A DNA stretch of 64,000 nt from Rhodobacteraceae bacterium LNNU 3342 (lineage in GTDB: Bacteria; Pseudomonadota; Alphaproteobacteria; Rhodobacterales; Rhodobacteraceae), in assembly GCA_008711135.1 (NCBI GenBank), contig VUAW01000012.1, positions 1-64,000 on the forward strand. The letters are read 5' to 3'. Shown piece after piece: positions 48,575 through 64,000 of the stretch (positions are counted from its first letter, which is position 1; the number at the start of each line of letters is the position of its first letter). Below the pieces are notes generated by a model. The model saw only the letters and a list, made by a program, of their open reading frames with translations. It was not told the DNA's origin and did no database searches. A program made the position numbers and the translations under genes.

Positions 48575-51500
48575 TTACTCTGCCGGAATGGGTTCCGCGT
48601 GTTTGTTCCGTCCGACAAGCCGCGCAAAACGCGCACCCGCCCGTTCGCCAAGAACCAGCAGACAGGGCGTCAGCACCAGCGTAAGCAGCGTCGCGACTGT
48701 CAGACCGCCAGCGATGGCCGTCGAAAGCTCCATCCACATCTGCCCCGACGGCGCCCCGAAAGTGATGTCGCGGCCGAAGAAGTCGATGTTCATCCCCAGC
48801 ACCATTGGCATCAGCCCGAGCACCGTCGTGACCGAAGTCAGGAAGACCGGCCGCAGACGCAAGGCACCTGTTCGCAGTGCGGCCTCGACCGCCGCATAGC
48901 CGCGCGCGCGCATCTCGTTGAACGTGTCGATCAGCACGATGTTGTTGTTCACAACGATTCCGGCCAGGGCGATGATCCCGATCCCGCCCATCACCACCCC
49001 GAACGGACGTCCGGTGACCAGAAGCCCGATCAATACTCCCGCCGTGGAAAACACGATGGCCGACAGCACAAGAAACGCCTGGTACAGGCTGTTGAACTGC
49101 GTCACCAGCGCCAGCAGCATCAGGAAGATCGCGCTGATGAATGCCACCCCGAGGAAGGCCGCCGCATCGGCCTGATCCTCGGCCTCGCCGCCAAAGCTCA
49201 GGCTGACGCCGGGCGGCAGTTGTTCGTCCGCCATCGCGGCCTGAAGGCGCGCGATCTGGTCCGCGACAAGCAGACCATCAGCAACGTTGGCATCGATCGT
49301 GACGACGCGGTTGCCGTCGATGCGCGTGATCGTTCCGGTGCGCGGCGCCGGTTCCAGCGTCACGAAGTTGCGGATCGGAACCAGCCCGGCGGGCGTATTG
49401 AGCCGCAGGTATTCCAGCCGCTCCAGGTTGCGTTCATCAGCCGGAAAACGGACGCGGATGTCGACCTCATCCGTCGCATCGCCGGGACGATACTCGGCAA
49501 GCTGCACACCAGTAGTGAGTAGCCGCACCGCCTGCCCCAGCGTCGTGATGTCGGCCCCATAGCGGGCGGCCTCGATCCGGTCCACCGCCAGCCGCCATTC
49601 CACGCCCGGCCGCGCGAGGTTGTCGTCGACGTCTGTGAAGCCGCCCACAGCATCCATCGCCTGCCGGATACGCGTCGCGGTGGCCAAGGCTGGCTCTGCT
49701 GGCCCGGTTATGCGCAATTGTACCGGCTTGCCTTGGCCTGGGCCGCTTTGCTGTTCCTGGATCTGGATGTCGATCCCTGCGATGTCGCTTGTGCGAGCGC
49801 GCACCTCGTCCAAAATTTGCGTCGCGGGTCGGCGCTGATCCCACGGCAGCAGATCAAGCTGCAGCACGCCGATCGTGTCCTGCGACTGGTTGGTGCCACC
49901 GCCCCGGCTGATGGTGCGGGCATAGACGTACTCGATCCCCTCCATCCCCGTGACACGCTCCTCGACCCGGCGCACGAGCGCGTCCTTTTCCCAGACGGAC
50001 AGGTTATCGCGCGAGGTAATCTGCACCTGCGCCACCTCGGGCTCCTGTGAAGGAAAGAAGGTCGTCCCGTGGCCCATGGCCGCATAGGCGGTATAGGTCG
50101 CCACCAGAAGCGCAATCGCCGTCAGAAGCACCTTGCCCGGATGGCGCAGCAGCCGTGGCAGGATGTTGACATAGATCCGCGTGCTGCCGGCCAAATCGGC
50201 TAGGTCGCCGGATTCAGCCGCGCGCTCGGCAACCGCGGCTTCGGACCCGGCTCGGCGCTTGCCCCCCATGATCCCGCCCAGCACCGGCACAAAGATCAGC
50301 GCCATCGCAAGCGAGGCGGAAAGTGTCACGATCACGGTGAGCGGCAGGAACTTCATGAACTCGCCGACGATCCCGGTCCAGAACAACAGCGGGAAGAACA
50401 CCGCCAGCGTCGTCGCGGTCGAAGCGATAATCGGCCAAGCCATCCGTTTCGCGGCCTCGGCATAGGCATCGTGGGGCGAGGCGCCTTCGCTCAGCCGCCG
50501 GTCCGCAAGCTCGATGGTGACGATCGCGCCGTCCACCAGCATCCCCACCACGAGGATGAGCGAAAAGAGCACGATCATGTTCATGGTGAAGCCCATGAAG
50601 TGCAGGATCGCGATCCCTGCGAGGAACGAACCCGGAATGGCAAGTCCCACAAGAATTCCGGACCGGACGCCAAGCGCCGCGATGATCACCACCATCACCA
50701 GCAGGATCGCGGTGATGACGTTGTTCTCCAGGTCGGAAAGCAGGGTTTCGATCTGTTCGGATTCATCCTGCAGATAGGTGACCTCGATCGTTTCCGGCCA
50801 GGCCGGACGCGCCTGTTCCATCAGGTCGCGGATGCCCGCCACGGTGTCGATGATGTTGGCGCCGACGCGCTTGGTCACCTCAAGCGCGATCGCGGGTTCA
50901 CCATTGATGCGGGCAAAGCCTTCGGGGTCCTGAAAGGTGCTGCGGACCAGCGCAATATCGCCAAGCGTGACGACGGCGCCATTCTCCACCTTCACGGGGA
51001 TGGCGTGGACATCCTCCAGCGTCTCGATCACGCCGGGAACCTTGAGCGTCAGCCGCCCCGCGCCCGTGTCGATGGCCCCGGCAGCAACCAGCCGGTTGTT
51101 CCGCTGGATCTGGCCAAGAATTTCCTCGAACGAAATGTTGTAGGATTCAAGGGCCACCGGGTCGATCAGCACCTCGACCATCTCGTCGCGCTTGCCGCCA
51201 AGATCTACCTCAAGCACGCCGGGAAGCGCCTCGATCCGCGTCTTTATCTCATCTGCCATGGCAATAAGCGCGCGCTCCGGCACGGGGCCAGAGATCATGA
51301 CGGTCAGAACCGGGAACAGCGCCGTGTTCATCTCACGCACGACGGGCTCGTTCGCGCCACCGGGCAGGTCGCTTTTCGCAAGGTCTACGGCGTCCTTTAC
51401 GTCGTCCAGCGCCTGCTTGGAGTCGCCGCCAGCCTCGAACTCCAGGATCAGGTTCACGTAGCCGTCCGCTGCAGTCGAGCGTATCTCCTTCAGCCCTTCA

Positions 51501-51724
51501 ACGGATTGAAGCTGCGTCTCCAGCGGACGCAGCAGAAGCCGCTCGCCATCATCGGGCGAGATGCCTTCATAAGCAACGGACACATAGACGACCGGAATTC
51601 GGACCTCGGGCATCGACTCCTTCGGTATCGACACCCAAGCCATGGACCCTGCGGTCAGGAGCAGGGCAAGCAACACCAGAATGGTGCGCGCGTGGTCGAA
51701 GGACCAGCCGATCAGTCTGTTCAC
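48575..51724 (-). CDS. RND-family efflux transporter, inner-membrane pump
   Basis: This 1049-residue RND protein has two six-helix membrane blocks and two large periplasmic loops. It opens with MNRLIGWSFDHARTILVLLA and has the motif region LVVGMLVDGAIVTIELADRR near 400 (proton-relay Asp in VDGAI) and GIVVNNNIVLIDTFNEMRAR near 940. The MPEVRIPVVYVSVAYEG start and low similarity to AcrB suggest the CusA/AcrB-like HAE-type group with unknown substrate. It overlaps the adaptor stop by four bases. Confidence 0.88.
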   Translation of the reverse strand: MNRLIGWSFDHARTILVLLALLLTAGSMAWVSIPKESMPEVRIPVVYVSVAYEGISPDDGERLLLRPLETQLQSVEGLKEIRSTAADGYVNLILEFEAGGDSKQALDDVKDAVDLAKSDLPGGANEPVVREMNTALFPVLTVMISGPVPERALIAMADEIKTRIEALPGVLEVDLGGKRDEMVEVLIDPVALESYNISFEEILGQIQRNNRLVAAGAIDTGAGRLTLKVPGVIETLEDVHAIPVKVENGAVVTLGDIALVRSTFQDPEGFARINGEPAIALEVTKRVGANIIDTVAGIRDLMEQARPAWPETIEVTYLQDESEQIETLLSDLENNVITAILLVMVVIIAALGVRSGILVGLAIPGSFLAGIAILHFMGFTMNMIVLFSLILVVGMLVDGAIVTIELADRRLSEGASPHDAYAEAAKRMAWPIIASTATTLAVFFPLLFWTGIVGEFMKFLPLTVIVTLSASLAMALIFVPVLGGIMGGKRRAGSEAAVAERAAESGDLADLAGSTRIYVNILPRLLRHPGKVLLTAIALLVATYTAYAAMGHGTTFFPSQEPEVAQVQITSRDNLSVWEKDALVRRVEERVTGMEGIEYVYARTISRGGGTNQSQDTIGVLQLDLLPWDQRRPATQILDEVRARTSDIAGIDIQIQEQQSGPGQGKPVQLRITGPAEPALATATRIRQAMDAVGGFTDVDDNLARPGVEWRLAVDRIEAARYGADITTLGQAVRLLTTGVQLAEYRPGDATDEVDIRVRFPADERNLERLEYLRLNTPAGLVPIRNFVTLEPAPRTGTITRIDGNRVVTIDANVADGLLVADQIARLQAAMADEQLPPGVSLSFGGEAEDQADAAAFLGVAFISAIFLMLLALVTQFNSLYQAFLVLSAIVFSTAGVLIGLLVTGRPFGVVMGGIGIIALAGIVVNNNIVLIDTFNEMRARGYAAVEAALRTGALRLRPVFLTSVTTVLGLMPMVLGMNIDFFGRDITFGAPSGQMWMELSTAIAGGLTVATLLTLVLTPCLLVLGERAGARFARLVGRNKHAEPIPAE

Positions 51725-52902
51725 GACTCGTCTCCTTCAGCCACAACGTTGTCCGCTGCAGCGGTCATGGCTGGGGCCCGGGCGCAAAGTTCCGGTGACA
51801 GGTTGGCAGAAGCCAAGCCTTCCGGGGCGGCGGGCGCCGGTGCGCTTTGTCCCTCGGATACCCGCACCACGTCGCCCTCTTGTACGAAGCCTTGGCCGAT
51901 CGTGATTACACGAGCCTCTTCCGGAAGCCCGGACACCCAAAGGCCCTGCGCCTCCGCGCGCACAATCTCGATCTCATGAAAGCTCACCTTGCCCGCGGTG
52001 TCGGCAGTTTTGAGGCCCAGTTCCCCGCCCGTTCCCAATGCTAGGATTGCTGGGGAGACGAATTGCGCGGGAACTGTGTCGACCGGGATCGTCACCTCGG
52101 CGCTGATGCCGGACGGAACAGTGCCTGTTTCGTTGGGCGTCCGCACCTCGACGGCAAAAGTGCGGGTCGCCGGGTCGGCAGAGGTGGCGACGAAACAGAC
52201 CAAACCACGCTCCGTTTCGCCGGTGGCATAGGAGACCATGACTTCCCGGCCCGGCTCAACCTTGGCGCGGTCAAGTTGGCTGACGCGAACAGTCGTCCGC
52301 AGCGGCACGTTTTCTACGATGGTTACGACATCAGTACCTGCACCGACGAATTCGCCCACTTCGGCGGCGATATCATCTACCTGTCCACCGAACGGCGCCC
52401 GGATGAGGGTGTTGTCGATCTGCTCTTGAAGCCGGGCGACTTCCTCGCGCGCCGCTTGCAGAAGCGTCTCAAGCTCGCGCAACTGGGCCGCGGTGGCATA
52501 GCCGCTGGACTGAAGCCGTTGCTGCGCGTCGTAATCCCGCTGCCTGCGGTCGAGGACGGCCTCCGCCTCGCGCAGACGGCTGTCGAGTCCCTCCAGCGTC
52601 ATCCGGAACAGCGGCTGCCCCGCCTCTACCCGCGCGCCGCGATCCACCATGATCTCAGCCACGCGCCCGGAGGTTTCCGTGCGTGCCGGCGCCTTTCGGA
52701 ACGGCTGTACATCGCCTTGGCCCCGCACAAATCGTGCCACCGGCTGCGCCTGCAAGGTTGTCACCTCAACCAGGGGTGCCCGCGCCTCGGCCTGAGGGGG
52801 CGCGACGGCAGCCAACGGCTCGCTGAACAGCACGCCGGAGGCCAGCCAGCCGGCTGCGCCCAAGGCGAGTGCGCCTGCAACAGCGATGGATGAACGGGAC
52901 AT
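51721..52902 (-). CDS. RND periplasmic adaptor (membrane fusion) protein
   Basis: The 393-residue product has a membrane anchor (residues 5-25), a lipoyl-like and hairpin region (about 80-190, with QRDYDAQQRLQSSGYATAAQ in the coiled coil) and barrel domains (GQVDDIAAEVGEFVGAGTDV near 200). These are standard for HlyD/AcrA-type adaptors. The ATG at 52902 has AAGGAG seven bases upstream; an earlier frame start at 52971 lies inside the operator. It is the first gene of the pump operon and divergent from the TetR gene. Confidence 0.9.
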   Translation of the reverse strand: MSRSSIAVAGALALGAAGWLASGVLFSEPLAAVAPPQAEARAPLVEVTTLQAQPVARFVRGQGDVQPFRKAPARTETSGRVAEIMVDRGARVEAGQPLFRMTLEGLDSRLREAEAVLDRRQRDYDAQQRLQSSGYATAAQLRELETLLQAAREEVARLQEQIDNTLIRAPFGGQVDDIAAEVGEFVGAGTDVVTIVENVPLRTTVRVSQLDRAKVEPGREVMVSYATGETERGLVCFVATSADPATRTFAVEVRTPNETGTVPSGISAEVTIPVDTVPAQFVSPAILALGTGGELGLKTADTAGKVSFHEIEIVRAEAQGLWVSGLPEEARVITIGQGFVQEGDVVRVSEGQSAPAPAAPEGLASANLSPELCARAPAMTAAADNVVAEGDES

Positions 52903-52950
52903 GGAGGGCTCCTTCAACGACTCACCGCCGGACCTGCCGGCGTCTGAGGC

Positions 52951-52980
52951 ATATTGTAATCCGAATTCCAATTACAATAT
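52951..52980. promoter_or_regulatory. Palindromic operator between the RND operon and tetR
   Basis: ATATTGTAAT and ATTACAATAT are perfect ten-base inverted arms separated by ten bases (CCGAATTCCA), 48 bases before the adaptor ATG and 29 before the tetR ATG. A further half-site ATTGTAAT at 53003-53010 touches the tetR start codon. The layout fits binding by the TetR protein to both promoters. Confidence 0.75.
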
Positions 52981-53008
52981 GACATGCAGGAAATTGAGCG
53001 AGATTGTA

Positions 53009-53677
53009 ATGAACCGTCCTCTCCAGCCTCTTGCGCGCCGCACCGATGGCGCCGCCACCCGCGCCCAGCTGCTTGAGGCAGCGGGCGCCATCATCGCGGA
53101 AAAGGGCGTGGATCGCGCCACCGGCAAGGAAATCGCTGAAAGAGCGGGTGCCAGCACGAACGCGATCAACTATCATTTCGGAAGTATGGAGGGGCTGCAC
53201 GCAGCCGTTCTGGCGACGGCGCATCAAAGCCTTGCCTCGCTTGACGAGCTTCTGATGATCGCCCGAAGCACTGCCGCGCCAGAAGAAAAGCTGCGGCAGA
53301 TCCTCAAGCTGGTCGTTTCAGCAGCAATTCTGCCGCAAGAGCGGTCCTGGGCGCTGCCGGTGATTACGCGGGAATTTCTGTCGCCCTCTCCGGCACAGCG
53401 GTGTTTGGTCGATCGGGATCTGCTGCCCAAGAAGCAGCTTGTCATCAGTGTTCTTGCCCAATTCCTGGGCCGCCCGGTCGACGATCCGCTGGTGGCGCGA
53501 TGCAGCTTTTCCTTTTTCGCGCCGGTGATGATGCTGCTTTCGGCAGCCCGTGAAAGCCGGGCCGAGGCCTTCCCATGGATTGGCGAAGGTGAGGCTGCGG
53601 TCGAACGGCTGACAGCGCATCTTCATACCTTCCTCTTGGGTGGCCTGAAGGCGGCCAAGGCGGAAAGCAAAGGCTGA
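53009..53677 (+). CDS. TetR family regulator (CecR-like) of the RND pump
   Basis: This 222-residue protein has a TetR helix-turn-helix, ATRAQLLEAAGAIIAEKGVD and KEIAERAGASTNAINYHFGS, at about residues 16-65. Its C-terminal half resembles the CecR/DUF1956 type (YbiH). The ATG at 53009 removes an upstream extension that crosses the operator. It is divergent from the pump genes and separated by the palindrome at 52951-52980, so repression of the pump and itself is likely. The inducing ligand is unknown. Confidence 0.86.
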   Translation: MNRPLQPLARRTDGAATRAQLLEAAGAIIAEKGVDRATGKEIAERAGASTNAINYHFGSMEGLHAAVLATAHQSLASLDELLMIARSTAAPEEKLRQILKLVVSAAILPQERSWALPVITREFLSPSPAQRCLVDRDLLPKKQLVISVLAQFLGRPVDDPLVARCSFSFFAPVMMLLSAARESRAEAFPWIGEGEAAVERLTAHLHTFLLGGLKAAKAESKG

Positions 53678-53730: not shown

Positions 53731-55137
53731 TCAGGCGGACTTTTTCGTCCGCCAGCTTTCGGCATAGTTTTCCCGCGCCTCGCGGGCGTAAGGGGTAGCA
53801 GAAACGCGGACGCGGATTTCTGCCTGACGGTGCGGCTCGACCGAGGTCTTGCCGCTGCCGCCGTCGGGCTCGCCCCAGATCAGCGTGAGCACGTCACCCT
53901 CTTGCACGTCGGCATCGACCACCCCGAGCGATAGCATGCAGCGCTCGTTAAAGCTGTAGCCGTTGAACATCGACAGGCCGACCATCTTGTCGCCGTGCAT
54001 GATCTTGTCAAAGCTTGACGAGGCATAGTTCGGCTGCGGGAAGTCGATCCACTTCATGTTCTCTTCGCCGGGGCGGAAGGACGAGGCGATGACCTTGATC
54101 ACATCCTCGGCGTTCCACTCGAACGTCACCTTCTTGCGGCGCGGCTGTTCCTTGATCTTCTCAAGTGCCTCGCGGCCCACGAAGTCATGGTCGAACTTGA
54201 CGTAGATGCCGTAGCCGAGTTCGTAGGGGTTGGTGTAGTAGTCGCGGATGTCGTCGGACACAAAGCTGCCGCCGATCGACCCGGTCGCCTCGTAGCTTTG
54301 GGGACCCAGCCACTTGCGGTAATCTTCCAGTTCGGGGCTCGTGTAGATCCCCGGCAGCGGCGACGGGATCCAGCCGGACTCGAGCGTGTTGGTCGAGTAA
54401 GCCCGGGCGCCGACTTGGTGCAGATCAACGCCTGCCTCCTCAGCCGCCCTCAGGATGGCCTCGCGGACCTCGTCCTTTTCCTCGTAGGGACCCCAGATTT
54501 CCAGACCGGGCGCACCCGCCATGCCGTGACGCAGGGCGCGGACCTGACGGCCTGCGATGTTGATCCAGTCAACGTGGAAGAACTTGATGTCGGGGACGGT
54601 GCCGCCGTTCAGCTTCTCGAAAATCTTGGGCGCGTCGGGGCCTTGGATCTGGAAGCGATAATGGATGCGAGTAACCTGCTTGCCGTCGGGGCGGGACGGC
54701 GACCGCGGGCTGTGCGTCAGCTTGACGTCGTGCTTGCCGAGCGAGGCGTTGTAGAGCAGCCAGTTCGACGTCGGCGCGCGGCCCACCGAAAGGAACTTGT
54801 CCTCTGCCTCGCGGAACATGATGTGGTCGCCGATCACGTGCCCGTCCGGCGAGACCGGAACGAAGTGCTTGGCGCGGTTGGTGCCAAAGTTCGAGAAGCT
54901 GTTAATGGCCAGACCCTCAAGGAATTTTGCCGCGTCTGGGCCCTCGATCACCACCTCGTCCATGTGGTGCGACTGGTCAAACAGCACCGCGGATTCCCGC
55001 CAGGCGCGCTGTTCGCTACGCCAGTTCGTGAATTCCGGCGCAACGACTGGGTATACATACATCCCGATGCGTGAGTTTCTCAGTAGCTCCACCGGGTTGG
55101 TGCGTTGAATAATTTCATGAAGATTAGCGTCTGACAT
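53731..55137 (-). CDS. LigM/DesA-like tetrahydrofolate-dependent O-demethylase
   Basis: LigM moves the methyl group of vanillate or 3-O-methylgallate to tetrahydrofolate, giving protocatechuate or gallate. The 468-residue product matches LigM along its length. MLRNSRIGMYVYPVVAPEF-type residues open the chain near 20, then WAWRxSAVLFDQ-like RESAVLFDQSHHMDEV near 50, ALRHGMAGAPGLEIWGPYEE near 200, TLESGWIPSPLPGIYT near 250 and YVNPYE/YTNPYELGYGIYVKFDH near 300. The GcvT-like fold binds folate. The ATG at 55137 has GGAGGAG upstream. It sits beside the gallate-type ring-cleavage genes, which supports 3-O-methylgallate as substrate. Confidence 0.87.
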   Translation of the reverse strand: MSDANLHEIIQRTNPVELLRNSRIGMYVYPVVAPEFTNWRSEQRAWRESAVLFDQSHHMDEVVIEGPDAAKFLEGLAINSFSNFGTNRAKHFVPVSPDGHVIGDHIMFREAEDKFLSVGRAPTSNWLLYNASLGKHDVKLTHSPRSPSRPDGKQVTRIHYRFQIQGPDAPKIFEKLNGGTVPDIKFFHVDWINIAGRQVRALRHGMAGAPGLEIWGPYEEKDEVREAILRAAEEAGVDLHQVGARAYSTNTLESGWIPSPLPGIYTSPELEDYRKWLGPQSYEATGSIGGSFVSDDIRDYYTNPYELGYGIYVKFDHDFVGREALEKIKEQPRRKKVTFEWNAEDVIKVIASSFRPGEENMKWIDFPQPNYASSSFDKIMHGDKMVGLSMFNGYSFNERCMLSLGVVDADVQEGDVLTLIWGEPDGGSGKTSVEPHRQAEIRVRVSATPYAREARENYAESWRTKKSA

Positions 55138-55166
55138 TCCGACTCCTCCCGTTATGCCCGTCATGG

Positions 55167-55174
55167 TGTATACA
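55167..55174. promoter_or_regulatory. TGTATACA site before the LigM-like gene
   Basis: TGTATACA is a perfect palindrome 29 bases before the LigM-like start. The same TGTATnCA pattern is found at 55999-56006 and 56062-56069 near the GntR gene and the dioxygenase operon. The adjacent GntR/FCD regulator is the likely binder. Confidence 0.5.
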
Positions 55175-55220
55175 TTGAGAGCGGGCTGAGCCGGAAAAAT
55201 CAAGATATTTTCTGTGAAGA

Positions 55221-55958
55221 TCATCCAACAAGGAAGGACAGCGCCGGCACCTGATGCCGCAAGCTGCGGTCCTGCGAAAGGATGTAGTCCAGGTTTTGAC
55301 GGGCCAGCCGGGCATGTTCGCGCATCAGCGCCTCGGCCCGTGCGCCCTCTCGGGCATGGATCGCTTCGGCCACGCGCCGGTGCTGTTCCTGGGCAAGCTG
55401 AAGCGAATGGTGGAAGGCATCAGGCGCCGCTCGATCCGGCAGGAAGGCAGAGGGTGAGGCGAAGGGAAGGCTGGTGGCGCGCCCGACTTCTTCGCAAATC
55501 ATCCGGCTCCCGGGAAGGCGGGCCAGCGCGTCGTGGAACTCGGCATTCAGCTCTGAATAGCGTTCGAAATCGAGATCCTCACCGGCAGCGCCGGGAAAAC
55601 ATGAATCCAGTCGCGCCACGATGTCAAAGAACGCGTCCATACGCTCGGGCGGCACTCCTCGTTCAGCCGCAAGCCGCGCTGCGGTGCCCTCCAGAATCCC
55701 GCGAAGCTCGATCGCGTCGATTACGTCGGCTGCCGTAAAGCTGCGCACCGCAAAGCCGCCGCTGGAGACGCGCTCCAGAAGCCCCTCCTCAGCCAGACGC
55801 GACATCGCCTCGCGGACCGGGGTTCGGGAAACCTCAAGCTGCTCGGCCAGGTGAACCTCAAGCAGGCGGGTGCCACCGGGCAGTTCCCCGCTCAGGATGC
55901 GTTTGCGCAATTCACTCAGCGCGCGCCGGGTATGAGTGTTGGCCCCATCTGTCTTCAT
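55221..55958 (-). CDS. GntR family (FCD-type) regulator
   Basis: The 245-residue product has an N-terminal winged helix, ALSELRKRILSGELPGGTRL and LAEQLEVSRTPVREAMSRLA at about residues 12-65, and a C-terminal FCD ligand domain (NAEFHDALARLPGSRM near 145, AIHAREGARAEALMREHARL near 205). Such regulators often control aromatic-acid or sugar-acid catabolism. The ATG at 55958 follows AAGGTGGGGA; the longer frame to 56012 lacks the fold. It lies between the LigM-like gene and the divergent hydrolase-dioxygenase operon. Confidence 0.87.
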   Translation of the reverse strand: MKTDGANTHTRRALSELRKRILSGELPGGTRLLEVHLAEQLEVSRTPVREAMSRLAEEGLLERVSSGGFAVRSFTAADVIDAIELRGILEGTAARLAAERGVPPERMDAFFDIVARLDSCFPGAAGEDLDFERYSELNAEFHDALARLPGSRMICEEVGRATSLPFASPSAFLPDRAAPDAFHHSLQLAQEQHRRVAEAIHAREGARAEALMREHARLARQNLDYILSQDRSLRHQVPALSFLVG

Positions 55959-55998
55959 GTTCCCCACCTTGCCTTGGAAATACCCGCGTCGGGTATCG

Positions 55999-56006
55999 TG
56001 TATGCA
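55999..56006. promoter_or_regulatory. TGTATGCA site upstream of the GntR gene
   Basis: TGTATGCA sits in the wider imperfect palindrome GTGTATGCATAACAC, 41 bases before the GntR start. It belongs to the set of three TGTATnCA sites around this regulator and may mediate autoregulation. Confidence 0.45.
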
Positions 56007-56061
56007 TAACACGGCAAAAATCGCTTGATAAAGGCGCTACCCCACGTTAGCCCTAGAAAAA

Positions 56062-56069
56062 TGTATTCA
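56062..56069. promoter_or_regulatory. TGTATTCA site upstream of the hydrolase-ligAB operon
   Basis: TGTATTCA lies 28 bases before the alpha/beta hydrolase start and shares the TGTATnCA pattern with the other two sites. Its position suits repression of the plus-strand operon by the GntR protein. Confidence 0.4.
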
Positions 56070-56096
56070 TCGCGGTGAGGGAGGAGCCTAGCCTGC

Positions 56097-56798
56097 ATGA
56101 CAACAGCCATCCTGATTCCGGGGCTGATCTCTGACGCGCGCGTCTGGCGTCCAGTGGCTGCAGTTCTGGACTCCCACGTGCTCGTCCATCATGCCGATCT
56201 GACGCAGATGACCGGCATCACGCAAGCGGCCGAGGAGCTTCAGGCCAAGGTCGAAGGTCCGCTCTTGCTCGCCGGTCATTCTATGGGCGGCCGGATCGCG
56301 CTGGAAATGGCGCGGCTCGCCCCCGACCGGGTTCAGGGCATGATCCTGGCCAACACCGGCCACGGCCCCCGGCGCGAGGGGGAGGAGGTCAAGCGTCAGC
56401 AAATGATCGACCTCGGCTACCGCAGTATGGAGGAGTTGGTCGATACCTGGCTGCCCCCGATGGTGGATGTGGCGCGGCAGGACGATGCCGAATTGATGGC
56501 GGACCTGCGGGAAATGGCGCTCCTGGCCGATGCCGAGCAGCACGAACGGCAAATCCGAGCGTTGATGGATCGGCCCAATGCCTCGGCCTATCTGGACGCA
56601 ATTAAATGCCCGGTGCTGCTGATCGTAGGCCGCCAGGATAGATGGAGCCCGATCGCCCAGCACGAAGAGATCGCCGCCGCGGTGGCGGACGCGGAACTTG
56701 CCATTATTGAACATGCCGGTCACTTCGCGCCCGTGGAACGCCCAGAGGATGTGGTGTCGGTTGCGCGGGACTGGCTCAGCAGGAAGGTGCTCTCATGA
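56097..56798 (+). CDS. Alpha/beta hydrolase of the ring-cleavage operon
   Basis: The 233-residue product has the alpha/beta-hydrolase fold with the nucleophile elbow GHSMGGRIAL (Ser near residue 62), an acid in VGRQDRWSP near 180, and the His of HAGHFAPVERPEDV near 205. It leads a tight operon with ligA and ligB (ATGA overlap with ligA). It could release an aromatic acid from an ester or act on a ring-cleavage product; the pathway to gallate products does not require it, so the substrate is open. Confidence 0.82.
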   Translation: MTTAILIPGLISDARVWRPVAAVLDSHVLVHHADLTQMTGITQAAEELQAKVEGPLLLAGHSMGGRIALEMARLAPDRVQGMILANTGHGPRREGEEVKRQQMIDLGYRSMEELVDTWLPPMVDVARQDDAELMADLREMALLADAEQHERQIRALMDRPNASAYLDAIKCPVLLIVGRQDRWSPIAQHEEIAAAVADAELAIIEHAGHFAPVERPEDVVSVARDWLSRKVLS

Positions 56799-57136
56799 CT
56801 GACTCCTCTCGCATTCCCGATACGCCGCTATTCGACCGTGCGGGTTCCATCCGGGGCTACAAGCTCAACAAGATGGCAATGGCCCTAGGTGATCCTGCCA
56901 ACCGTGATGCTTTCCGTGAGAATGAAGAAGCGTTCCTCGACCGCTTCGGCTTGTCGGCCGAGGAGAAGGCAGCCGTCATGTCGCGGGACTGGCACGAAAT
57001 GGTGCGCCTGGGCGGCAACCTGTTCTTCATCCTGAAGATCTCTGCCGTCGATCCGGTGCCGATCACCCAGATCGGCGCGGCACAGGCGGGAATGGATCAC
57101 GCGGAATTTCTTGCGCAGCGGCTTGGAAAGGTCTGA
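56795..57136 (+). CDS. ligA: Protocatechuate/gallate 4,5-dioxygenase small subunit
   Basis: The 113-residue product matches the alpha subunit of LigAB-type extradiol dioxygenases. LFDRAGSIRGYKLNKMAMAL near residue 13, NREAF-like NRDAFRENEEAFLDRFGLSA near 35 and RLGGNLFFILKI near 70 are family segments. LigA covers the active site of LigB. Its gene overlaps the hydrolase gene by four bases and is two bases from ligB. Confidence 0.9.
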   Translation: MTDSSRIPDTPLFDRAGSIRGYKLNKMAMALGDPANRDAFRENEEAFLDRFGLSAEEKAAVMSRDWHEMVRLGGNLFFILKISAVDPVPITQIGAAQAGMDHAEFLAQRLGKV

Positions 57137-57138
57137 TC

Positions 57139-57981
57139 ATGGCGACAATCATTGGCGGGCTGGGTACCAGCCATGTTCCTTCCATCGGCGTGGCATTGGA
57201 CCGTGGTCTGCGCGACACCCCGGACTGGAAGCCGTTCTTTGACGGCTATGAGGTTGGGAAGGAGTGGATGCGCGAAGCGAAACCGGATGTGGCGGTGGTG
57301 ATCTTCAATGACCACGGCAACAGCTTCTTCCTTGACCGTGTTCCGACCTTCGCGGTCGGCGTCGCCGAAACCTACAAGCCGGTGGATGAAGGCTGGGGTC
57401 CCCGTGCCATCGCGCCGTTCGAAGGCGCGGTGGACCTGTCTTGGCATTTGGTCGACAAGCTGGTCGAACGGCACTTCGACCCGCTCGTGTGCCGGGAGAT
57501 TGACGTGGATCACGGGCTTCAGGTCCCAATGGAACTGTTCTTTGGTCGGCCCGAAGCTTGGCCGGTCAAGGTGGTCCCGATCTGGGTCAACACCATCCAG
57601 TACCCGATCCCCACTCCGCAACGCTGCTGGGACATGGGCCGCGTCCTGCGCGAGACGATCGAAAGCTTCCCCGGCGATGAACGCGTCGTGATCCTTGGTA
57701 CTGGCGGCCTGTCCCACCAGCTTCAGGGTGCGCGCGCGGGCTTCATCAACCGCGAGGCTGACATGGCCTGGCTCGACGGAATCGCGAACGACCCTGAACA
57801 CTACCGCAACATGACGCGAGAGGACTACGTCGAACAGTTCGGTTCAGAAGGCGCGGAACTCATCATGTGGCTGGTGATGCGCGGCGCGATGGACCCCAAG
57901 GTCAAGCTGATCCACAAACATTATCACGCCCCCGCTTCGATGACCGGCGCAGGGATGGTGGTTCTGGAAAACGAAGGCTGA
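57139..57981 (+). CDS. ligB: Protocatechuate/gallate 4,5-dioxygenase large subunit
   Basis: LigB is the iron(II) extradiol ring-opening subunit. The 280-residue product has the metal His in GTSHVPSIG at residue 12 and FNDHGNSFF at 59, the general base His in GTGGLSHQLQG near 195 and a Glu near 240 (GSEGAELIMW). The length fits LigB. With gallate as substrate it would form 4-oxalomesaconate; with protocatechuate it would form 4-carboxy-2-hydroxymuconate semialdehyde. The downstream genes fit the gallate route better, since no LigC or LigI gene is visible. Confidence 0.9.
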   Translation: MATIIGGLGTSHVPSIGVALDRGLRDTPDWKPFFDGYEVGKEWMREAKPDVAVVIFNDHGNSFFLDRVPTFAVGVAETYKPVDEGWGPRAIAPFEGAVDLSWHLVDKLVERHFDPLVCREIDVDHGLQVPMELFFGRPEAWPVKVVPIWVNTIQYPIPTPQRCWDMGRVLRETIESFPGDERVVILGTGGLSHQLQGARAGFINREADMAWLDGIANDPEHYRNMTREDYVEQFGSEGAELIMWLVMRGAMDPKVKLIHKHYHAPASMTGAGMVVLENEG

Positions 57982-57985
57982 AGCG

Positions 57986-58309
57986 ATGTTCGTACTAATG
58001 CGCTGCCTTCATCACCCGGGCCAGGATGCGGCCCGGGATGAACACCGTCCCGCCCACCGGGCCTGGGTTCAATCCGGGGGCGGGGGGAAGGTCTCCGTTC
58101 TCATCGGCTCGGCGCTTCTGGGTGAGGATGGCGCCTCGGCCGGCAACTTTGGTATTCTGGAGGCGCCGGACATGGCCGCCGCGCGTGCCTTTGCCGAAGG
58201 GGACCCCTTCAACGCGGCAGGCATCGTGGCATCTATCGAGCTGACGCCCCTTCCCGACGCGTTTCAGGCGGACCGGATCGCCAACCCGATGAGCCCGCGG
58301 CTCGGTTAA
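57986..58309 (+). CDS. YciI family protein
   Basis: The 107-residue product has the YciI/ferredoxin-like fold pattern, starting MFVLMRCLHHPGQDAARDEHR and containing IGSALLGEDGA and AAARAFAEGDPFNAAGIVAS, the core YciI segment with the His/Asp-like pair. YciI proteins sometimes accompany aromatic or muconolactone genes and may act on lactones; the role here is unknown. It is the last gene of the ligAB operon, five bases after ligB, and its stop overlaps the convergent dehydrogenase stop. Confidence 0.82.
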   Translation: MFVLMRCLHHPGQDAARDEHRPAHRAWVQSGGGGKVSVLIGSALLGEDGASAGNFGILEAPDMAAARAFAEGDPFNAAGIVASIELTPLPDAFQADRIANPMSPRLG

Positions 58310-59169
58310 GCCTCCTGCCCCGTCCGTGCAGCCAGCGCCTGCGTGATCGTCACGTCCAGGGCATCGGCGGCGCGGACACCACAACCGCCCATCCGATCCT
58401 GAACTGCCGCAATTTCATCCGCCAGCGCCCCGTGCAGACCAAGCGCCCGCAATGTTTCCGCACTCTCCCGCATCTCGGCGGCGCGGCGCTTGCCGTGGCG
58501 CAGGGTCCTTTCGAACTGGTACTGAGCAAAGTCGGGCCAGCCAAGACCGGGGAAGCTTCCGGAAAGCGATGTCATGATCTCGTCCCGGCAGCCAGACGCC
58601 TCGGCCGCCAGCAGGCATTCCACTGTAATCGCCTCCAAGCCCTTGACGAACAACGACCGGACCATCTTGATCGCCGTCGCCGCCCCGGGGACTGCGCCCG
58701 CTACGTTGAAGTTGAAGTCGAGCTGGGCCAACTCCTTGAGCAAGTCAGGCACATCGCCCGCTACCAGGACTGGCGTCCGGTGCCCACGTGGATGCACGGG
58801 CGCCATTACCGCCATATCGACGTAGAAGGCGCCTGCCTGTGCCACCAGATCCGCGCTTTCGCGTTTGCGCCCCGGCGAGACCGAATTGATGTCGATCACC
58901 ACCTGACCCTGCCGCAGATGCGGCCTTTGTACGTGCAACGCCTGAAGGCTCTGATCTGCTGTCACGGCGCTGATCAGCCAGTGGCAGTCGGCCAGAACTT
59001 CGTGATCGCCCGCTGCGACACCACGGATGCGCATCGCTTCGGCCATATCGCTGTTGGCGTCTGCCAACAACCGGTCGTGCGCGGCGAAGGACAGGCTGGC
59101 GTCCTGCGCGGCGAGGCTGTCGCAAAAGGCTCGGGCGGCCTCTCCGAAACCAAGAAAACCGATCTTCAT
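58306..59169 (-). CDS. DUF1932-type NAD(P)-dependent oxidoreductase
   Basis: This 287-residue protein has an N-terminal Rossmann domain (MKIGFLGFGEAARAFCDSLA) as in 6-phosphogluconate and 3-hydroxyisobutyrate dehydrogenases. The DUF1932 C-terminal domain begins near residue 185 (LAAEASGCRDEIMTSLSGSFP) and VAGAVPGAATAIKMVRSLFVKG near 155 holds the catalytic Lys. It might oxidise a hydroxy acid or semialdehyde in the aromatic pathway, possibly in place of LigC, which is of a different family. The ATG at 59169 has GGAGA upstream. It is the last gene of a minus-strand unit with the tautomerase, aldolase and hydratase genes. Confidence 0.8.
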   Translation of the reverse strand: MKIGFLGFGEAARAFCDSLAAQDASLSFAAHDRLLADANSDMAEAMRIRGVAAGDHEVLADCHWLISAVTADQSLQALHVQRPHLRQGQVVIDINSVSPGRKRESADLVAQAGAFYVDMAVMAPVHPRGHRTPVLVAGDVPDLLKELAQLDFNFNVAGAVPGAATAIKMVRSLFVKGLEAITVECLLAAEASGCRDEIMTSLSGSFPGLGWPDFAQYQFERTLRHGKRRAAEMRESAETLRALGLHGALADEIAAVQDRMGGCGVRAADALDVTITQALAARTGQEA

Positions 59170-59188
59170 GTTCAGATCTCCGCAAATA

Positions 59189-60232
59189 TCATGTGTAGAC
59201 GACACCATCGAAAAGCTTGCGCGCCGTGCGCAGGACCGCCGCCCGCGTCACCTGCCCGTCGCGGATCGTGGCGACGACGCTCATCTCTCCAGTTGGATGC
59301 TCAACTGAAAGCAGTTTCTCATCCCCGTCTGGCACTGCCGCGAGTTCCGCGGCAGGCCCGTGGGGAAGCAGGCAGGCGGTGGCGACGCTGACGGCGCCCA
59401 GCACGCCAATCGCCTTGTGACAGCGGTGCGGGATGAACGTCCGCGTCATGATCGCCCCGCCACGTTCTGCCGCCGATACCAGCGTCATCTTGGGGACTGA
59501 CTTCTCACGCACATTGCCCAGGTTCATCATCGGGCCCGCCCGAAGGCGGATCGCCTCCACCCGTGCGCGCAGGTCGGCATTCGCCTCCAGTTCCTCGGGC
59601 GGTTCTTGGCCCGTGACGCCCAGATCGGCCGCAGCCATGACCACGCATGGCATCCCATTGTCGATCAGCGTACAGGGAACACCCTCGATCACATCTACCG
59701 CCCGCCCCGTCGGCAGCAGCGCCCCACAGGATGAGCCTGCCGTATCAGCAAAGACAATGGGCACTGGCGCGGCCGTTCCCGGCACGCCGTCGATGCGTGC
59801 GTCCCCTGAATAGGTGACGGTGCCACCGGGGGTTTCGACTGTGGCTATGGCTATCTGGCCGGTGTTCTCCATGAAGATACGTACGTCAGTCCGCCCTTCT
59901 TGAGCCGGGGCCAGCCCCCGCTCGATCGCGAAGGGGCCAACGCCGGCCAGGATATTGCCGCAATTCTGCGCGTCAGTCACCACCGCCTGGTCGACGAAGA
60001 CCTGCAGGAACAGGTAATCGACATCCGCGTCGGGCCGCTGCGACTTCCGAACCACCGCCACCTTGGAGGTGAGGGGGTCCGCCCCGCCCATCCCGTCGAT
60101 CTGCCGCGGGTCAGGTGAGCCCATGATCCGCAGCAGGAAGGCATCCCGGTCGGCGGGCAGGTCGTCTGCAAGGAAGTAGCCCCCTTTGGAGGTCCCGCCC
60201 CGCATCCACATGGCCCGCACGCCGTCAGACAT
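59189..60232 (-). CDS. galD: PrpF/GalD-like 4-oxalomesaconate tautomerase
   Basis: GalD/LigU-type proteins isomerise the double bond of 4-oxalomesaconate. The 347-residue product has the PrpF/diaminopimelate-epimerase fold. The opening [36 protein letters not shown] near 90, [20 protein letters not shown] near 165 and [15 protein letters not shown] near 280 are core segments. It overlaps the aldolase gene by eight bases. The gallate-type neighbours support this over the methylaconitate isomerase role of PrpF. Confidence 0.83.
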
Positions 60233-60896
60233 ACTTCAGGCCCTTCTCCGCAAGCCGTTCGCGCATCTTGTAGATGTCGAGTCCAAGTTCACCGGCCGCC
60301 AGACGGTCACGCTTCTCCCCCTCGGCAGCGACGCGGACCCGCGCTTTCTCCAGTACAGTCTCGGCATTCTCGCGCGGAATGACGCAGACACCATCATCAT
60401 CGGCCACGATCACATCCCCCGGCCGGACATATGCCCCGGCACAGACCACCGGGATGTTAACCGAGCCAAGCGTCTCTTTCACCGTGCCCTGGGCGTGGAT
60501 GGCGCTGGACCAGACAAGAAAGCCCATCCGCCGCAGATCTGCCGTGTCGCGGACGCCGGCGTCGATGATCAGCGCCCCACACCCCCGCGCCATGGCCGAG
60601 GTCGCCAGCAGGTCACCGAAGTACCCGTCCGTGCATGTCGAGGTCGGAGCGAGCACGAGGATGTCGCCTTCGCGAAGCTGCTCGATCGCCACATGCAGCA
60701 TCCAGTTGTCGCCTGGCGGGGCGGAAATTGTGACGGCGCTCCCGGCGATGGTGCGGTCCATCTGGATCGGCCGCATCGCCGGACCCATGAGACCCGTCCG
60801 TCCCTGCGCCTCATGCACCGTCGCCACACCGCATTCGCCGAGCGCGCGGATTACATCGGCATCGGCACGTTCGATGTTCTGAACCACCACCCCCAT
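60225..60896 (-). CDS. galC: 4-carboxy-4-hydroxy-2-oxoadipate aldolase, RraA-like
   Basis: GalC/LigK cleaves 4-carboxy-4-hydroxy-2-oxoadipate to pyruvate and oxaloacetate. The 223-residue product has the RraA/HMG-aldolase fold with [20 protein letters not shown] near 32, [20 protein letters not shown] near 93 and [20 protein letters not shown] near 115, the Arg and Asp of GVRD forming the metal and substrate site. It overlaps the PIG-L gene start region and the GalD gene on either side, in one operon. Confidence 0.88.
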
Positions 60897-61624
60897 CAGA
60901 GTTCATCCACTGTGCGCGGGAAGATCGACTGGAAGCCCTCAGCATGGGTGGCCTTGCGCCCGCCCGACTGGCCGCCGGAGTTCCGCATGAAGTGGTTGCC
61001 GCGGTTCTCGCCGACGTTTTCATAGTAGTGCCAGAGGTGCTCCTGCCCCTCCATGCACTGGATCGCCTTCCACTTCTTTTCCCAGACCGGAGAGATGTCG
61101 AGGAAGACGTCCGGCTTCCATTTCATCTGCTCGGTCTGGTGCGGCTCGAACAGGTAAAGCTGCGGCGCGCCGAGGACCTTTTCCCCCGGATTGTGGCCCC
61201 AGGCCTGCGCGATCATCCGCGCCTCAAGCGCGACCGTCGTCGCATACATGTGGTCGGTGTTATAGGGGTCCCACTGCGAATGCGACAGCATGAAGGCGGG
61301 CTGCACCTTGCGGATCACGTCGACCAGCCGGTACTTCGCCTCGCGGTCAAGTTCCAGCGGGTAGTCGCCGCAGTCAAAGAACTGGATATCATGCACACCG
61401 AGCGCCTGGGCCGCGTTCTCTGCCTCGGTCCGGCGGGCGGCTTTGACCTTTTCCAGCGTCATGCCTTCCTGCTTCCAGAGCTTGGCGCTTTCGCCGCGCT
61501 CGCCATAGGACAGGCAGACGACTGTTACCTCATAGCCCTTTTCCTGATGCAGCGCGATCGCGCCGCCGCAGCGCCAGACAAAATCGGCGGAATGGGCGCT
61601 GATCACCAGTGCAGTCTTTGTCAT
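60896..61624 (-). CDS. galB: PIG-L family 4-oxalomesaconate hydratase-like protein
   Basis: GalB of gallate degraders is a PIG-L-fold zinc enzyme that hydrates 4-oxalomesaconate. The 242-residue product has the first metal-site segment as [20 protein letters not shown] at residue 8, where deacetylase members of the fold read AHPDDE; the second, [20 protein letters not shown], lies near 115. The altered first motif and the partners galC and galD support hydratase function over deacetylation. The ATG at 61624 begins the unit after the TRAP genes. Confidence 0.83.
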
Positions 61625-61682
61625 TGTCTTGCTCCTTTGCCGCTAGGGCGGCGTTTCGTACGCAGGTCCGGCATTTCCAGGC

Positions 61683-62987
61683 CTAGCGGATCATCGTGTT
61701 GGGAAGGATCAGCGCGATCTGCGGAAACGCCACCAGCAGCCCCAGCGCCACCAGCATCGCGACCCAGAAGGGCGCCACCCCGATGAAGATCTGTTCCAGC
61801 GGCACATGCCGCGCCACTGATTTGACGATGAAGATGTTCACACCCACGGGGGGCGAGATCAGCCCCATCTCCAGCGTCAGCACCACCAGCACCCCGAACC
61901 AGATCGGGTCGATCCCCAGCTGCACAATCACCGGGAAGAAGATCGGCAGCGTCAGGACCAGCATGGCAAAGCCTTCAAGGAAGCAGCCAAGCACAAGGTA
62001 GCAAAGCAGGATCAGCGCAAGCACACCCACCGCCGGCAGGTCGAGCGCAGCGAGGAACGTCCCCACCGCCTGAGGAATGTGACTCAGCGCCAGGAAGGGG
62101 TTGATCATATGCGCGGCGATCAGGATCAGCATTACTGTGGCGGTCGTGACGATGGAGTCCCGCCCCGCCTCCCACAGTGTGCGCAGTGACAGGCGGCGCA
62201 TCAGTGCCCCGGCGATGACCACAAGACCTGCGCCCACCGCCGCAGCCTCGACCGGAGAAAAGATGCCGCCATAAATGCCGCCGATCGTCAGCAGGATGAT
62301 CAGGATGATCGGCAGCGCCCGCCCTGTGGCCGCGCCCAGCTGCCTCAGGCTGCTCTTTGGCCCCGGCGGACCGAGTTCTGGCTTCAGCCAGCACAGGATC
62401 GTCACTGTCAGGATGAACAAGCCAAGCAGCATCAGCCCCGGCAGCACCCCGGCCAGGAACAGACGGCCGATCGATTGCTGTGTCAGGATCGCATAGATCA
62501 CAAAGCCTGTCGACGGCGGGATAAGGATGCCAAGCGTCCCGCCCGCAGCCACAACCCCTGTCGAAAGCCGCGAGTCGTAACCAAAACGCTCCATCTCGGC
62601 CATCGACACCTTGCCCATCGTCAAGGCTGCGGCCACCGATGACCCCGACAGCGCGGCGAACCCCCCGCACCCGATGACGGTGGCCGAGGCCAGTCCGCCC
62701 CGCACCGGCCCGACCAGTGCATAGGCCGCGTCATAAAGCGCGCGGCTCATGCCAGTGGCGCTGGCCACGTTGCCCATCAGGATGAACAGCGGGACGACCA
62801 CCAGTTCTGCCGAAGAGGCGAGAGTGAAGGTTTCAGAGGCCATGAGGCTCATCGCCGCCGGCAGCCCGCTCAGCGTCCAGATCCCGGCAAAGCCCACCGC
62901 GAACATTGCGAACGCAACCGGCACGCGCAGCATCAGCATGACGATCAGCGCCGCCATGCCGATGGTTCCGATCAAGGCGGGGGTCAT
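61683..62987 (-). CDS. TRAP transporter large membrane subunit (DctM-like)
   Basis: The 434-residue protein is highly hydrophobic with about 12 membrane segments and the DctM-type core. SSVAAALTMGKVSMAEMERF near residue 112 and GVVAAGGTLGILIPPSTGFV near 140 match the conserved cores, and MGLISPPVGVNIFIVKSVA near 365 is the second re-entrant loop. TRAP systems import organic acids with sodium. Its ATG overlaps the DctQ stop by four bases. Import of gallate, methylated gallate or a related aromatic acid is suggested by the neighbours. Confidence 0.9.
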   Translation of the reverse strand: MTPALIGTIGMAALIVMLMLRVPVAFAMFAVGFAGIWTLSGLPAAMSLMASETFTLASSAELVVVPLFILMGNVASATGMSRALYDAAYALVGPVRGGLASATVIGCGGFAALSGSSVAAALTMGKVSMAEMERFGYDSRLSTGVVAAGGTLGILIPPSTGFVIYAILTQQSIGRLFLAGVLPGLMLLGLFILTVTILCWLKPELGPPGPKSSLRQLGAATGRALPIILIILLTIGGIYGGIFSPVEAAAVGAGLVVIAGALMRRLSLRTLWEAGRDSIVTTATVMLILIAAHMINPFLALSHIPQAVGTFLAALDLPAVGVLALILLCYLVLGCFLEGFAMLVLTLPIFFPVIVQLGIDPIWFGVLVVLTLEMGLISPPVGVNIFIVKSVARHVPLEQIFIGVAPFWVAMLVALGLLVAFPQIALILPNTMIR

Positions 62988-63481
62988 GTACGCACCTCAC
63001 GCGGGGTCAGCAGCAGGGCCAGCGCGCGCAGCAGCATTCCCATTGCCGTCACCACGGCAAAGAAGCACAGCGCCCACTGGAAATGAGCCTTTGGCAGGCG
63101 GATCACGTTGGTCGAGAGGTTGAGCATCTGCGAAAGCCGCGACGAGTCATAAACAGTCCACGCGATGCCAAGGAAGATGACCGCCCCCAGCAAGGCGCTC
63201 AGGATGTCGGCCCAGCGGTTCAGCCAAGCCGGGAACAGGCGCTCGAACACGTCGACCACCACGTGGCCGCCGCGCCGGTCGCACAGGGCCATGCCGCCGA
63301 AGACGATGATCACCATGCCCATCTGGGCAATGTCCTGTGCCCCCGCCAGCGGCGCCCGCATGTTGCGCCCGATGACGTCGCGCAGGATAACTGCGACGAC
63401 AACGAACAGGCCCAGCGTCCCCACCGTGGCGCAGAGGCGGATCAGAAGATCCGCCTCTCGATCAATCTTCGGCAGCATCAA
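62984..63481 (-). CDS. TRAP transporter small membrane subunit (DctQ-like)
   Basis: The 165-residue product has four membrane segments. AQDIAQMGMVIIVFGGMALC near 45 and RRGGHVVVDVFERLFPAW near 68 match DctQ. Together with the DctM-like gene it forms the membrane part of the importer. It lies three bases from the binding-protein stop. Confidence 0.88.
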   Translation of the reverse strand: MMLPKIDREADLLIRLCATVGTLGLFVVVAVILRDVIGRNMRAPLAGAQDIAQMGMVIIVFGGMALCDRRGGHVVVDVFERLFPAWLNRWADILSALLGAVIFLGIAWTVYDSSRLSQMLNLSTNVIRLPKAHFQWALCFFAVVTAMGMLLRALALLLTPREVRT

Positions 63482-63484
63482 GGT

Positions 63485-64000
63485 TCACTCGCCCCGCATG
63501 GCAGCCAGGGCTTCCGCGCCACCGTTGACCTGCGCCACAAGCGTTTCCGTCAGCGGCGCCAGCACTTCGGCAAAGGCAGCAATTTCCTCGTCGCTCAACT
63601 CGATAACGGTCTTGCCAGCGGCCCGCACACCCTCCAGCGCTTGATCCGCGCGGGCGTTCCAGCCTTCCTCGGCGCTTTGCGACAGGACAAGGCCGCTGTG
63701 GGCGTCAATGGCGGCGCGATGTTCCTCTGATAACCCTTGGTAGCGGGCCTCGTTCATGACAAGGAAGAAGGTGATTTGGCCCAGCGGCGCGCCAATGCTG
63801 TAGCTGTTCGCGACCTCGTTCAGCTTGAAGTCATCAATCGCGCTGGAGCCCGTGATGATCCCGTCGATCAGGCCGGTCTGAAGCGCGTTGTACATCTCTC
63901 CCGCCGGCATCTGGACGGGCGTGCCGCCAAGCGCCTCGACCAGCGCGCCGGAAATCGAGCCCGACACGCGGATCTTAAGGCCGGCAACATCGGCTGGGCT
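63485..64000 (-). CDS. TRAP transporter substrate-binding protein (DctP-like), C-terminal part
   Basis: The last 171 residues are in the window; the N-terminus with its signal peptide lies beyond the right edge. The visible part has the DctP core KIRVSGSISGALVEALGGTP, then PAGEMYNALQTGLIDGIITG with the substrate-contact segment before it, and ends with the C-terminal helices. It is the first gene of the TRAP set on the minus strand as far as can be seen. Confidence 0.87.
   Translation of the reverse strand, partial: SPADVAGLKIRVSGSISGALVEALGGTPVQMPAGEMYNALQTGLIDGIITGSSAIDDFKLNEVANSYSIGAPLGQITFFLVMNEARYQGLSEEHRAAIDAHSGLVLSQSAEEGWNARADQALEGVRAAGKTVIELSDEEIAAFAEVLAPLTETLVAQVNGGAEALAAMRGE

Follow-up and report, generated by a model that had tools for sequence, protein, structure and literature searches.

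A cluster proposed for direct cleavage of 3-O-methylgallate in a Rhodobacteraceae genome, with a conserved hydrolase-LigA-LigB-YciI block

One end of a 64,000-nucleotide stretch of the genome of Rhodobacteraceae bacterium LNNU 3342 (contig VUAW01000012.1, positions 1 to 64,000; hereafter the window) carries a gene cluster in which an alpha/beta hydrolase (ABH) is encoded directly ahead of a two-subunit LigAB-type dioxygenase and a YciI-family protein. Cleavage of gallate gives 4-oxalomesaconate (OMA) and leaves no ester to hydrolyse. As described in PMC12314914, cleavage of 3-O-methylgallate (3MGA) gives a methyl ester, 4-carboxy-2-hydroxy-6-methoxy-6-oxohexa-2,4-dienoate (CHMOD), which closes to 2-pyrone-4,6-dicarboxylate (PDC) unless it is hydrolysed, with a half-life of about 70 min. 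According to that description, MgaAB, the alpha/beta hydrolase MgaC, and MgaD link 3MGA to GalD, GalB, and GalC in Pseudomonas NGC7, LigI being given as absent; with mgaC mutated, cells fail to grow on syringate and PDC builds up (PMC12314914). For Novosphingobium aromaticivorans (DSM 12444), LigAB is reported to convert 3MGA to CHMOD, and a strain lacking LigI, DesC, and DesD accumulates PDC (PMC8091115).

By analogy with these systems, we consider it probable that the window cluster serves the degradation of methoxylated lignin acids, LigAB cleaving 3MGA directly and ABH then releasing the methyl group as methanol. This reading is favoured because ABH and YciI have no known task after gallate cleavage, and an alpha/beta hydrolase is required after 3MGA cleavage in NGC7, as PMC12314914 describes it. 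As in the Mga and DesC systems, the operon of the window's LigAB-like dioxygenase includes an alpha/beta hydrolase; as in NGC7, GalD, GalB, and GalC are present and no LigI was found. It has no SnoaL-type isomerase of the MgaD kind, and a YCII protein occupies that slot; this is compatible with a 3MGA-cleavage pathway because mgaD and desD are described as not essential (PMC12314914). A pathway of this kind is already published. What appears to be new here, judging from the genes, is YciI in place of MgaD/DesD and LigM in place of VanA1B1, with GalB, GalC, and GalD below.

In the proposed pathway, a TRAP importer would bring the acid into the cell. Syringate would be converted to 3MGA by LigM, by a second LigM/DesA-like protein encoded on contig C15, or by a VanA/VanB-like pair encoded on contig C7. 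LigAB would open 3MGA to CHMOD, from which ABH would form methanol and 4-carboxy-2-hydroxymuconate, a step that mutant genetics has established for the analogous MgaC. YciI might then convert 4-carboxy-2-hydroxymuconate to OMA, the weakest step of the scheme, and GalD, GalB, and GalC, by family assignment, would lead to pyruvate and oxaloacetate. LigM may also divert some 3MGA to gallate, and vanillate to protocatechuate for PcaGH. A side branch may run through gallate, with f5, a catechol-2,3-dioxygenase-like protein encoded elsewhere in the genome, as a candidate for opening its ring.

The linkage of the four central genes was assessed in a survey of named genomes with a LigB alignment scan, using patterns built from four ABH-linked LigB proteins. 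We kept the best 80 of the 96 relatives, at 70-89% identity, with at least 20 kb of DNA in 66 of the 80 loci. The counts are inflated by groups of closely related genomes in Neorhizobium, Microvirga, and Pseudooceanicola; in addition, three loci apparently come from genomes that the family survey described below also covers. LigA adjoins LigB in all 80 loci, ABH adjoins LigA in 78, and YciI adjoins LigB in 76; all four genes are adjacent in 75 of these alphaproteobacterial loci. ABH-LigA-LigB-YciI is a conserved block, found together more than by chance. Homologues of the window's GntR gene occur in 53/80 loci, of DUF1932 in 30, of the TRAP proteins DctM and DctQ in 27 and 21, respectively, and a MetF-like gene in 29; GalB, GalC, and GalD occur jointly in 32. 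Upstream of the block, at L172:7546-8718, in six other Neorhizobium-type loci, and at L246:10508-11635, there is a gene (PF01717) resembling that of cobalamin-independent methionine synthase. The DesA cluster of Novosphingobium pentaromativorans US6-1 carries a similar annotation; the two proteins are only 23% identical.

The Ser, Asp, and His of the usual hydrolase triad are aligned across six ABH sequences. ABH was rejected as an ordinary PcaD, to which it is only weakly similar (79 bits against a cut-off of 256). In YciI, His9, His24, and Asp73 are among the residues conserved in at least 95% of 77 sequences, and the protein weakly matches TftG (E 0.00079). When the family was searched with ABH at E 1e-25, most members were 28-37% identical, as general hydrolases would be; relatives of at least 40% identity were found in 10 other genomes. 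Among these ten loci, LigAB and YciI follow ABH in three (L154, L156, L157), YciI is present without LigAB in two (L158, L161), and neither is present in two (L155, L160). One short locus (L159, 3.8 kb) holds ABH alone, L162 has none of the cluster, and L062 has another type of LigAB without YciI.

The window LigB is the only PF02900 protein found in the host genome, and its His12, His59, His193, and Glu240 are invariant in alignment A1. In a LigB tree that took 20 of the 80 surveyed orthologs, the window protein and the orthologs form a 21-row clade (100/100) apart from DesB. LigB of strain SYK-6 and 12 LigC-linked LigB proteins form a separate clade (100/98). The fused chain that is a feature of DesB/GalA is absent, LigA and LigB being separate genes in the window. 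The gallate dioxygenase model gives the window LigB 306.6 bits against a cut-off of 412, which is hard to reach for a lone subunit because it was set for the fused chain. Glu377' of DesB is described as reading gallate (PMC3962378); by sequence alignment only, it aligns with Leu80 of LigA, and the residue is Leu in 80/80 orthologs. This comparison carries little weight because the same alignment gives Ser for SYK-6 LigA, for which PMC3962378 reports Phe.

The window demethylase exceeds the cut-off of the LigM model (Table 1) and falls below that of the DesA model (607 bits against 800). In a 26-row tree it groups with SYK-6 LigM (100/98) and not with DesA. Since DesA proteins also exceed the LigM cut-off (634.7, 616, and 660.1 bits), the weight of the assignment lies on the tree. 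Score and tree together rule out DesA for this protein, though DesA holds the same slot in Chelativorans J32 (L207), and they bear out the LigM-type demethylase named in an earlier note on this DNA. Genes of the LigM/DesA type are present in 39/80 LigB loci; 38 encode proteins at least 65% identical to the window LigM, and the remaining one, from Chelativorans, is identified as DesA by both its score (875.7 against 800) and the tree. VanA-like genes are present in 15/80 loci, mostly from Microvirga, with a reductase alongside in 12, and the one VanA-like member that was checked has VanA_C and Rieske domains. The demethylase next to the conserved block thus varies: it is LigM-side in the window, and relatives carry DesA or VanA-like genes in the same place.

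Elsewhere in the host genome, the LigM/DesA-like protein on contig C15 scores 538 bits with the DesA model and 498 with the LigM model, both below the cut-offs. The VanA/VanB-like pair on contig C7 lies beside acyl-CoA synthetase, crotonase, and amidohydrolase genes, and its kin adjoin the block in 14-15 of the 80 LigB loci. Together with TRAP genes, this C7 set (L253) possibly represents an upper pathway for ferulate or sinapate. There are two MetF-like genes in the host genome, with 33-36% identity.

Of the 295 genomes of the family, 71 have GalB at E 1e-40. For 60 of the 70 besides the host, the surroundings of GalB were analysed, with genes counted by tblastn. These 60 loci contain f5 (28), LigB (13), LigC (12), LigI (17), LigM (6), ABH at 40% identity or more (1), and DUF1932 (23); 19 have neither f5 nor LigB. 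Twelve loci encode a protocatechuate-type LigB (at least 60% identical to that of Sphingobium TomTYG65); LigC and LigI accompany it in every one, and ABH in none. f5 is present in all six loci that carry a full LigM, and LigC and LigI are absent from them. A seventh LigM gene (L083) is cut at the end of its stretch, and that locus has f5 and LigI. The window GalB-like protein belongs to the PIG-L family and is linked to GalC and GalD, as would be expected of a GalB hydratase; none of the NCBIfam families scored above its cut-off with it. Family scores, domains, and adjacency agree with the GalD-GalB-GalC lower pathway proposed earlier. The earlier note had also described LigM with GalB as a mix of Sphingobium-type and Pseudomonas-type elements. 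Given the frequency of GalB in the family, and with LigM, GntR, the four-gene block, and GalB, GalC, and GalD recurring jointly in 16/80 LigB loci, this is a standing alphaproteobacterial arrangement. Ten loci, for example in Mesorhizobium L-8-3 and Agrobacterium larrymoorei, have a set like that of the window (LigM, GntR, the four genes, DUF1932, and GalD, GalC, and GalB).

LigC and LigI, which the earlier note did not see in the window, were not found in searches of the host genome either. Neither had a match at E 1e-8 in contig positions 62001-82000, the flank in which the earlier note suggested looking for them and where finding both, given a LigAB inactive on gallate, would have told against its reading. 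A LigI query had no match in the whole genome, and comparison of its five PF04909 hits with four LigI references likewise produced no match. With LigC as query, seven hits of the Gfo/Idh type were obtained at 22-30% identity (up to 32% for part of one), four of which were compared with all LigC references. Among the LigB loci, LigC was found in 0/80, also at E 1e-10, and neither LigC nor LigI was found in any of the 39 that carry a LigM/DesA gene. PcaG, PcaH, and PobA are above their cut-offs in the host genome, and protocatechuate would appear to have its own PcaGH route. DUF1932 recurs with OMA genes, with or without LigC and LigI.

f5 is a two-domain type I protein of the glyoxalase fold. 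The host copy (L122:9633-10664; contig C4 at about 34.6-35.7 kb; 80% identity) is adjacent to a divergent LysR gene. Among the 60 GalB loci, f5 and LigB never share a locus (P 7e-5, uncorrected for kinship). Genome-wide, f5 was found in 0/13 genomes with a GalB-linked LigB, in 6/19 GalB genomes whose locus lacks both f5 and LigB, and in 2/20 genomes without GalB. It is present in 20/80 LigB loci of the window clade, with GalB in 20/20 and LigM in 18/20. Coexistence with the window-clade LigB in these loci and in the host genome suits a division of labour. We tentatively propose, as a conjecture we would not yet call likely, a two-branch 3MGA node in which YciI replaces the SnoaL-type MgaD/DesD as isomerase and f5, with no relation to DesB/GalA, acts as a gallate dioxygenase supplying GalD, GalB, and GalC. 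At the level of titles and abstract openings, the literature searched named no type I gallate dioxygenase, although one may be in print.

The co-occurrence of f5 with GalB and LigM, and its presence in the host, favour giving the two branches equal rank: LigAB, ABH, and YciI would cleave 3MGA, and LigM would also make gallate, opened by f5. Against this, f5 scores 298.5 bits with the model for catechol 2,3-dioxygenase, close to its cut-off of 320.2, which a Roseomonas relative passes (349.6); equal branches seem a doubtful, if possible, arrangement. The path through gallate given in the earlier note, in which LigM converts 3MGA to gallate and LigAB is a gallate dioxygenase producing OMA directly, overlooked the presence of ABH and YciI in the operon and would leave these two an accessory task. 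It draws on the LigM-side placement of the demethylase, on the lack of LigC and LigI, and on an ABH-linked Roseomonas LigB whose annotation is gallate dioxygenase and which falls with DesB in the tree. It leaves the adjacency of ABH to LigA and of YciI to LigB unexplained, the window LigB is off the DesB branch as well as apart from SYK-6 LigB, and the DesB Glu377' position is Leu throughout the orthologs as far as sequence alignment goes; we consider this path unlikely. Least probable, and in our estimate very improbable, is 4,5-cleavage of protocatechuate derived from vanillate, in which the unrelated DUF1932 and ABH would take the places of LigC and LigI. SYK-6 LigM acts on vanillate, LigAB types cleave protocatechuate, and ABH has its weak similarity to the enol-lactonase PcaD, but the host has PcaGH and PobA and the window LigB is apart from the LigC-linked clade. 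DUF1932 as a LigC substitute was rejected, as it lies beside a true LigC in Nitratireductor and Azospirillum clusters.

Several observations weigh against direct cleavage of 3MGA by the window LigAB. The Roseomonas LigB linked to an ABH relative of 45% identity groups with DesB (100/99, on long branches), and the US6-1 LigB encoded near DesA falls with SYK-6 LigB; neither ABH linkage nor LigB clade fixes the substrate for this reason. LigAB-type enzymes are reported to accept 3MGA, gallate, and protocatechuate (PMC8091115), and by analogy the window LigAB may act on gallate. DesC and MgaC are only 13% identical, so that the alpha/beta hydrolase fold alone says little. Four loci (L155, L158, L160, L161) have ABH, GntR, LigM, and TRAP genes with LigAB missing from the locus, and ABH relatives also occur in unrelated surroundings, namely in L162, Sphingomonas R1, and Sinorhizobium. 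The window LigM groups with a 3MGA-to-gallate enzyme, SYK-6 LigM, and not with DesA; 27/80 LigB loci have neither LigM/DesA nor VanA-like genes; and LigI is present in 12/80, all from Microvirga. Regarding the four ABH loci without LigAB, f5 was not found in any of their genomes, and three of these genomes (G229, G153, G097) encode another type of LigAB beside GalB, GalC, GalD, and LigI.

The genes of the cluster are summarized in Table 1. All those named in the earlier note (LigM, LigA, LigB, GalD, GalC, the GalB-like protein, and the TRAP importer) are present, in agreement with domain and family scores; GntR, ABH, YciI, and DUF1932 had been overlooked. The host assembly comprises 3.78 Mb in 62 contigs, and the cluster is on contig C3. 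The true start of LigM probably lies inside the open reading frame (ORF), as the protein resembles SYK-6 LigM only from residue 32 onward. The GntR/FCD protein is probably the regulator of its own cluster; the 84 bases between GntR and ABH were read for a GntR site, and no operator is claimed. A protein of isoquinoline/xanthine-dehydrogenase size comes after DctP on the contig. Formate dehydrogenase subunits are encoded near the TRAP operon past the window (L009:5389-8784) and could oxidise formate derived from demethylation. On the other side of the cluster, positions 48575-53677 encode an RND-type efflux pump pair and a TetR-type regulator, judged from ORF translations.

Table 1. Features of the cluster in gene order (window coordinates). 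CHA, 4-carboxy-4-hydroxy-2-oxoadipate.
Feature	Position	Strand	Basis or remark
LigM-type folate-dependent O-demethylase	53731-55224	-	NCBIfam LigM equivalog, 686 bits against cut-off 580; LigM-side tree branch
GntR/FCD regulator	55221-56012	-	PF00392 and PF07729
Alpha/beta hydrolase (ABH), proposed CHMOD methylesterase (MgaC/DesC role)	56097-56798	+	PF12697
LigA, small dioxygenase subunit	56795-57136	+	PF07746
LigB, catalytic dioxygenase subunit, proposed 3MGA dioxygenase	57139-57981	+	PF02900
YciI-family protein, proposed isomerase of the ring-cleavage acid	57986-58309	+	PF03795
DUF1932 NAD-binding protein (oxidoreductase)	58306-59208	-	PF09130 and PF03446
GalD, OMA tautomerase	59189-60232	-	NF033377, 529.5 bits against cut-off 440
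GalC/LigK, CHA aldolase	60225-60896	-	TIGR02798 (LigK/PcmE), 372.9 bits against 304.5
GalB-like PIG-L protein, proposed hydratase	60896-61624	-	PF02585; adjoins GalC and GalD
TRAP DctM, large permease	61683-62987	-	Similarity to TRAP proteins of annotated neighbours
TRAP DctQ, small permease	62984-63481	-	ORF
TRAP DctP, binding protein	63485-64000	-	Start beyond the window, at contig position 64513

Much of the carbon in plant biomass is held in syringyl lignin units, and the genes are defined for few of the pathways that take syringate into central metabolism. If direct 3MGA cleavage is correct, a block with YciI and interchangeable demethylases (LigM, DesA, VanA-like) would serve it across many alphaproteobacterial genera of soil and marine origin, hidden under the annotation of protocatechuate dioxygenase. 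The second methoxyl group would leave as methanol, YciI would be a candidate isomerase family, and a candidate gallate dioxygenase from another superfamily would be indicated. Blocking the hydrolase should yield PDC, a polymer building block, as described for NGC7 (PMC12314914).

Compared by published description, the window resembles the NGC7 Mga system in its two-subunit LigAB-like dioxygenase, alpha/beta hydrolase, small extra protein, GalD, GalB, and GalC, GntR-type regulator, and lack of LigI. NGC7 is described with a Rieske VanA1B1 and a SnoaL-type MgaD, whereas the window has LigM, YciI, DUF1932, and TRAP genes. With Sphingobium SYK-6 and Novosphingobium DSM 12444, whose network is described as DesA/LigM-LigAB/DesZ-DesC/DesD (PMC8091115), it shares a LigM/DesA-family demethylase and, if the proposed pathway holds, conversion of 3MGA to CHMOD by LigAB and a counterpart of the DesC/DesD conversion. 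Those strains have LigI; in the window a GalB-like hydratase is encoded and YciI is in the second small-protein slot, and searches found neither LigC nor LigI. The GalD, GalB-like, and GalC steps are common to the Pseudomonas putida GalA/B/C/D pathway as given in PMC12314914, although the window has no fused GalA.

Among the genomes surveyed here, Chelativorans J32 shares ABH-LigA-LigB-YciI, DUF1932, TRAP, and GalB-GalC-GalD with the window. It differs in having DesA and not LigM, f5 and a MetF-like gene in the operon, and all genes on one strand. In N. pentaromativorans US6-1, an ABH relative (41%) adjoins DesA (849.9 bits against 800), with metF, purU, folD, LigAB, an IclR regulator, and an NTF2 protein nearby. 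A plasmid of Rhodococcus opacus DSM 44186 (L111) has LigA, LigB, an alpha/beta hydrolase, and a small protein in that order, with LigM/DesA-family proteins, GalB, and GalC; its small protein is muconolactone-isomerase-like, and aminomethyltransferase and folate genes lie inside the cluster. The R. opacus hydrolase had no blastp match to the window ABH at E 1e-3. From its gene content, the plasmid set is likely an actinobacterial syringate/3MGA cluster. The pattern of LigAB with a hydrolase and a small protein thus appears to recur across these systems, the small slot being occupied by a YciI, muconolactone isomerase, or SnoaL type.

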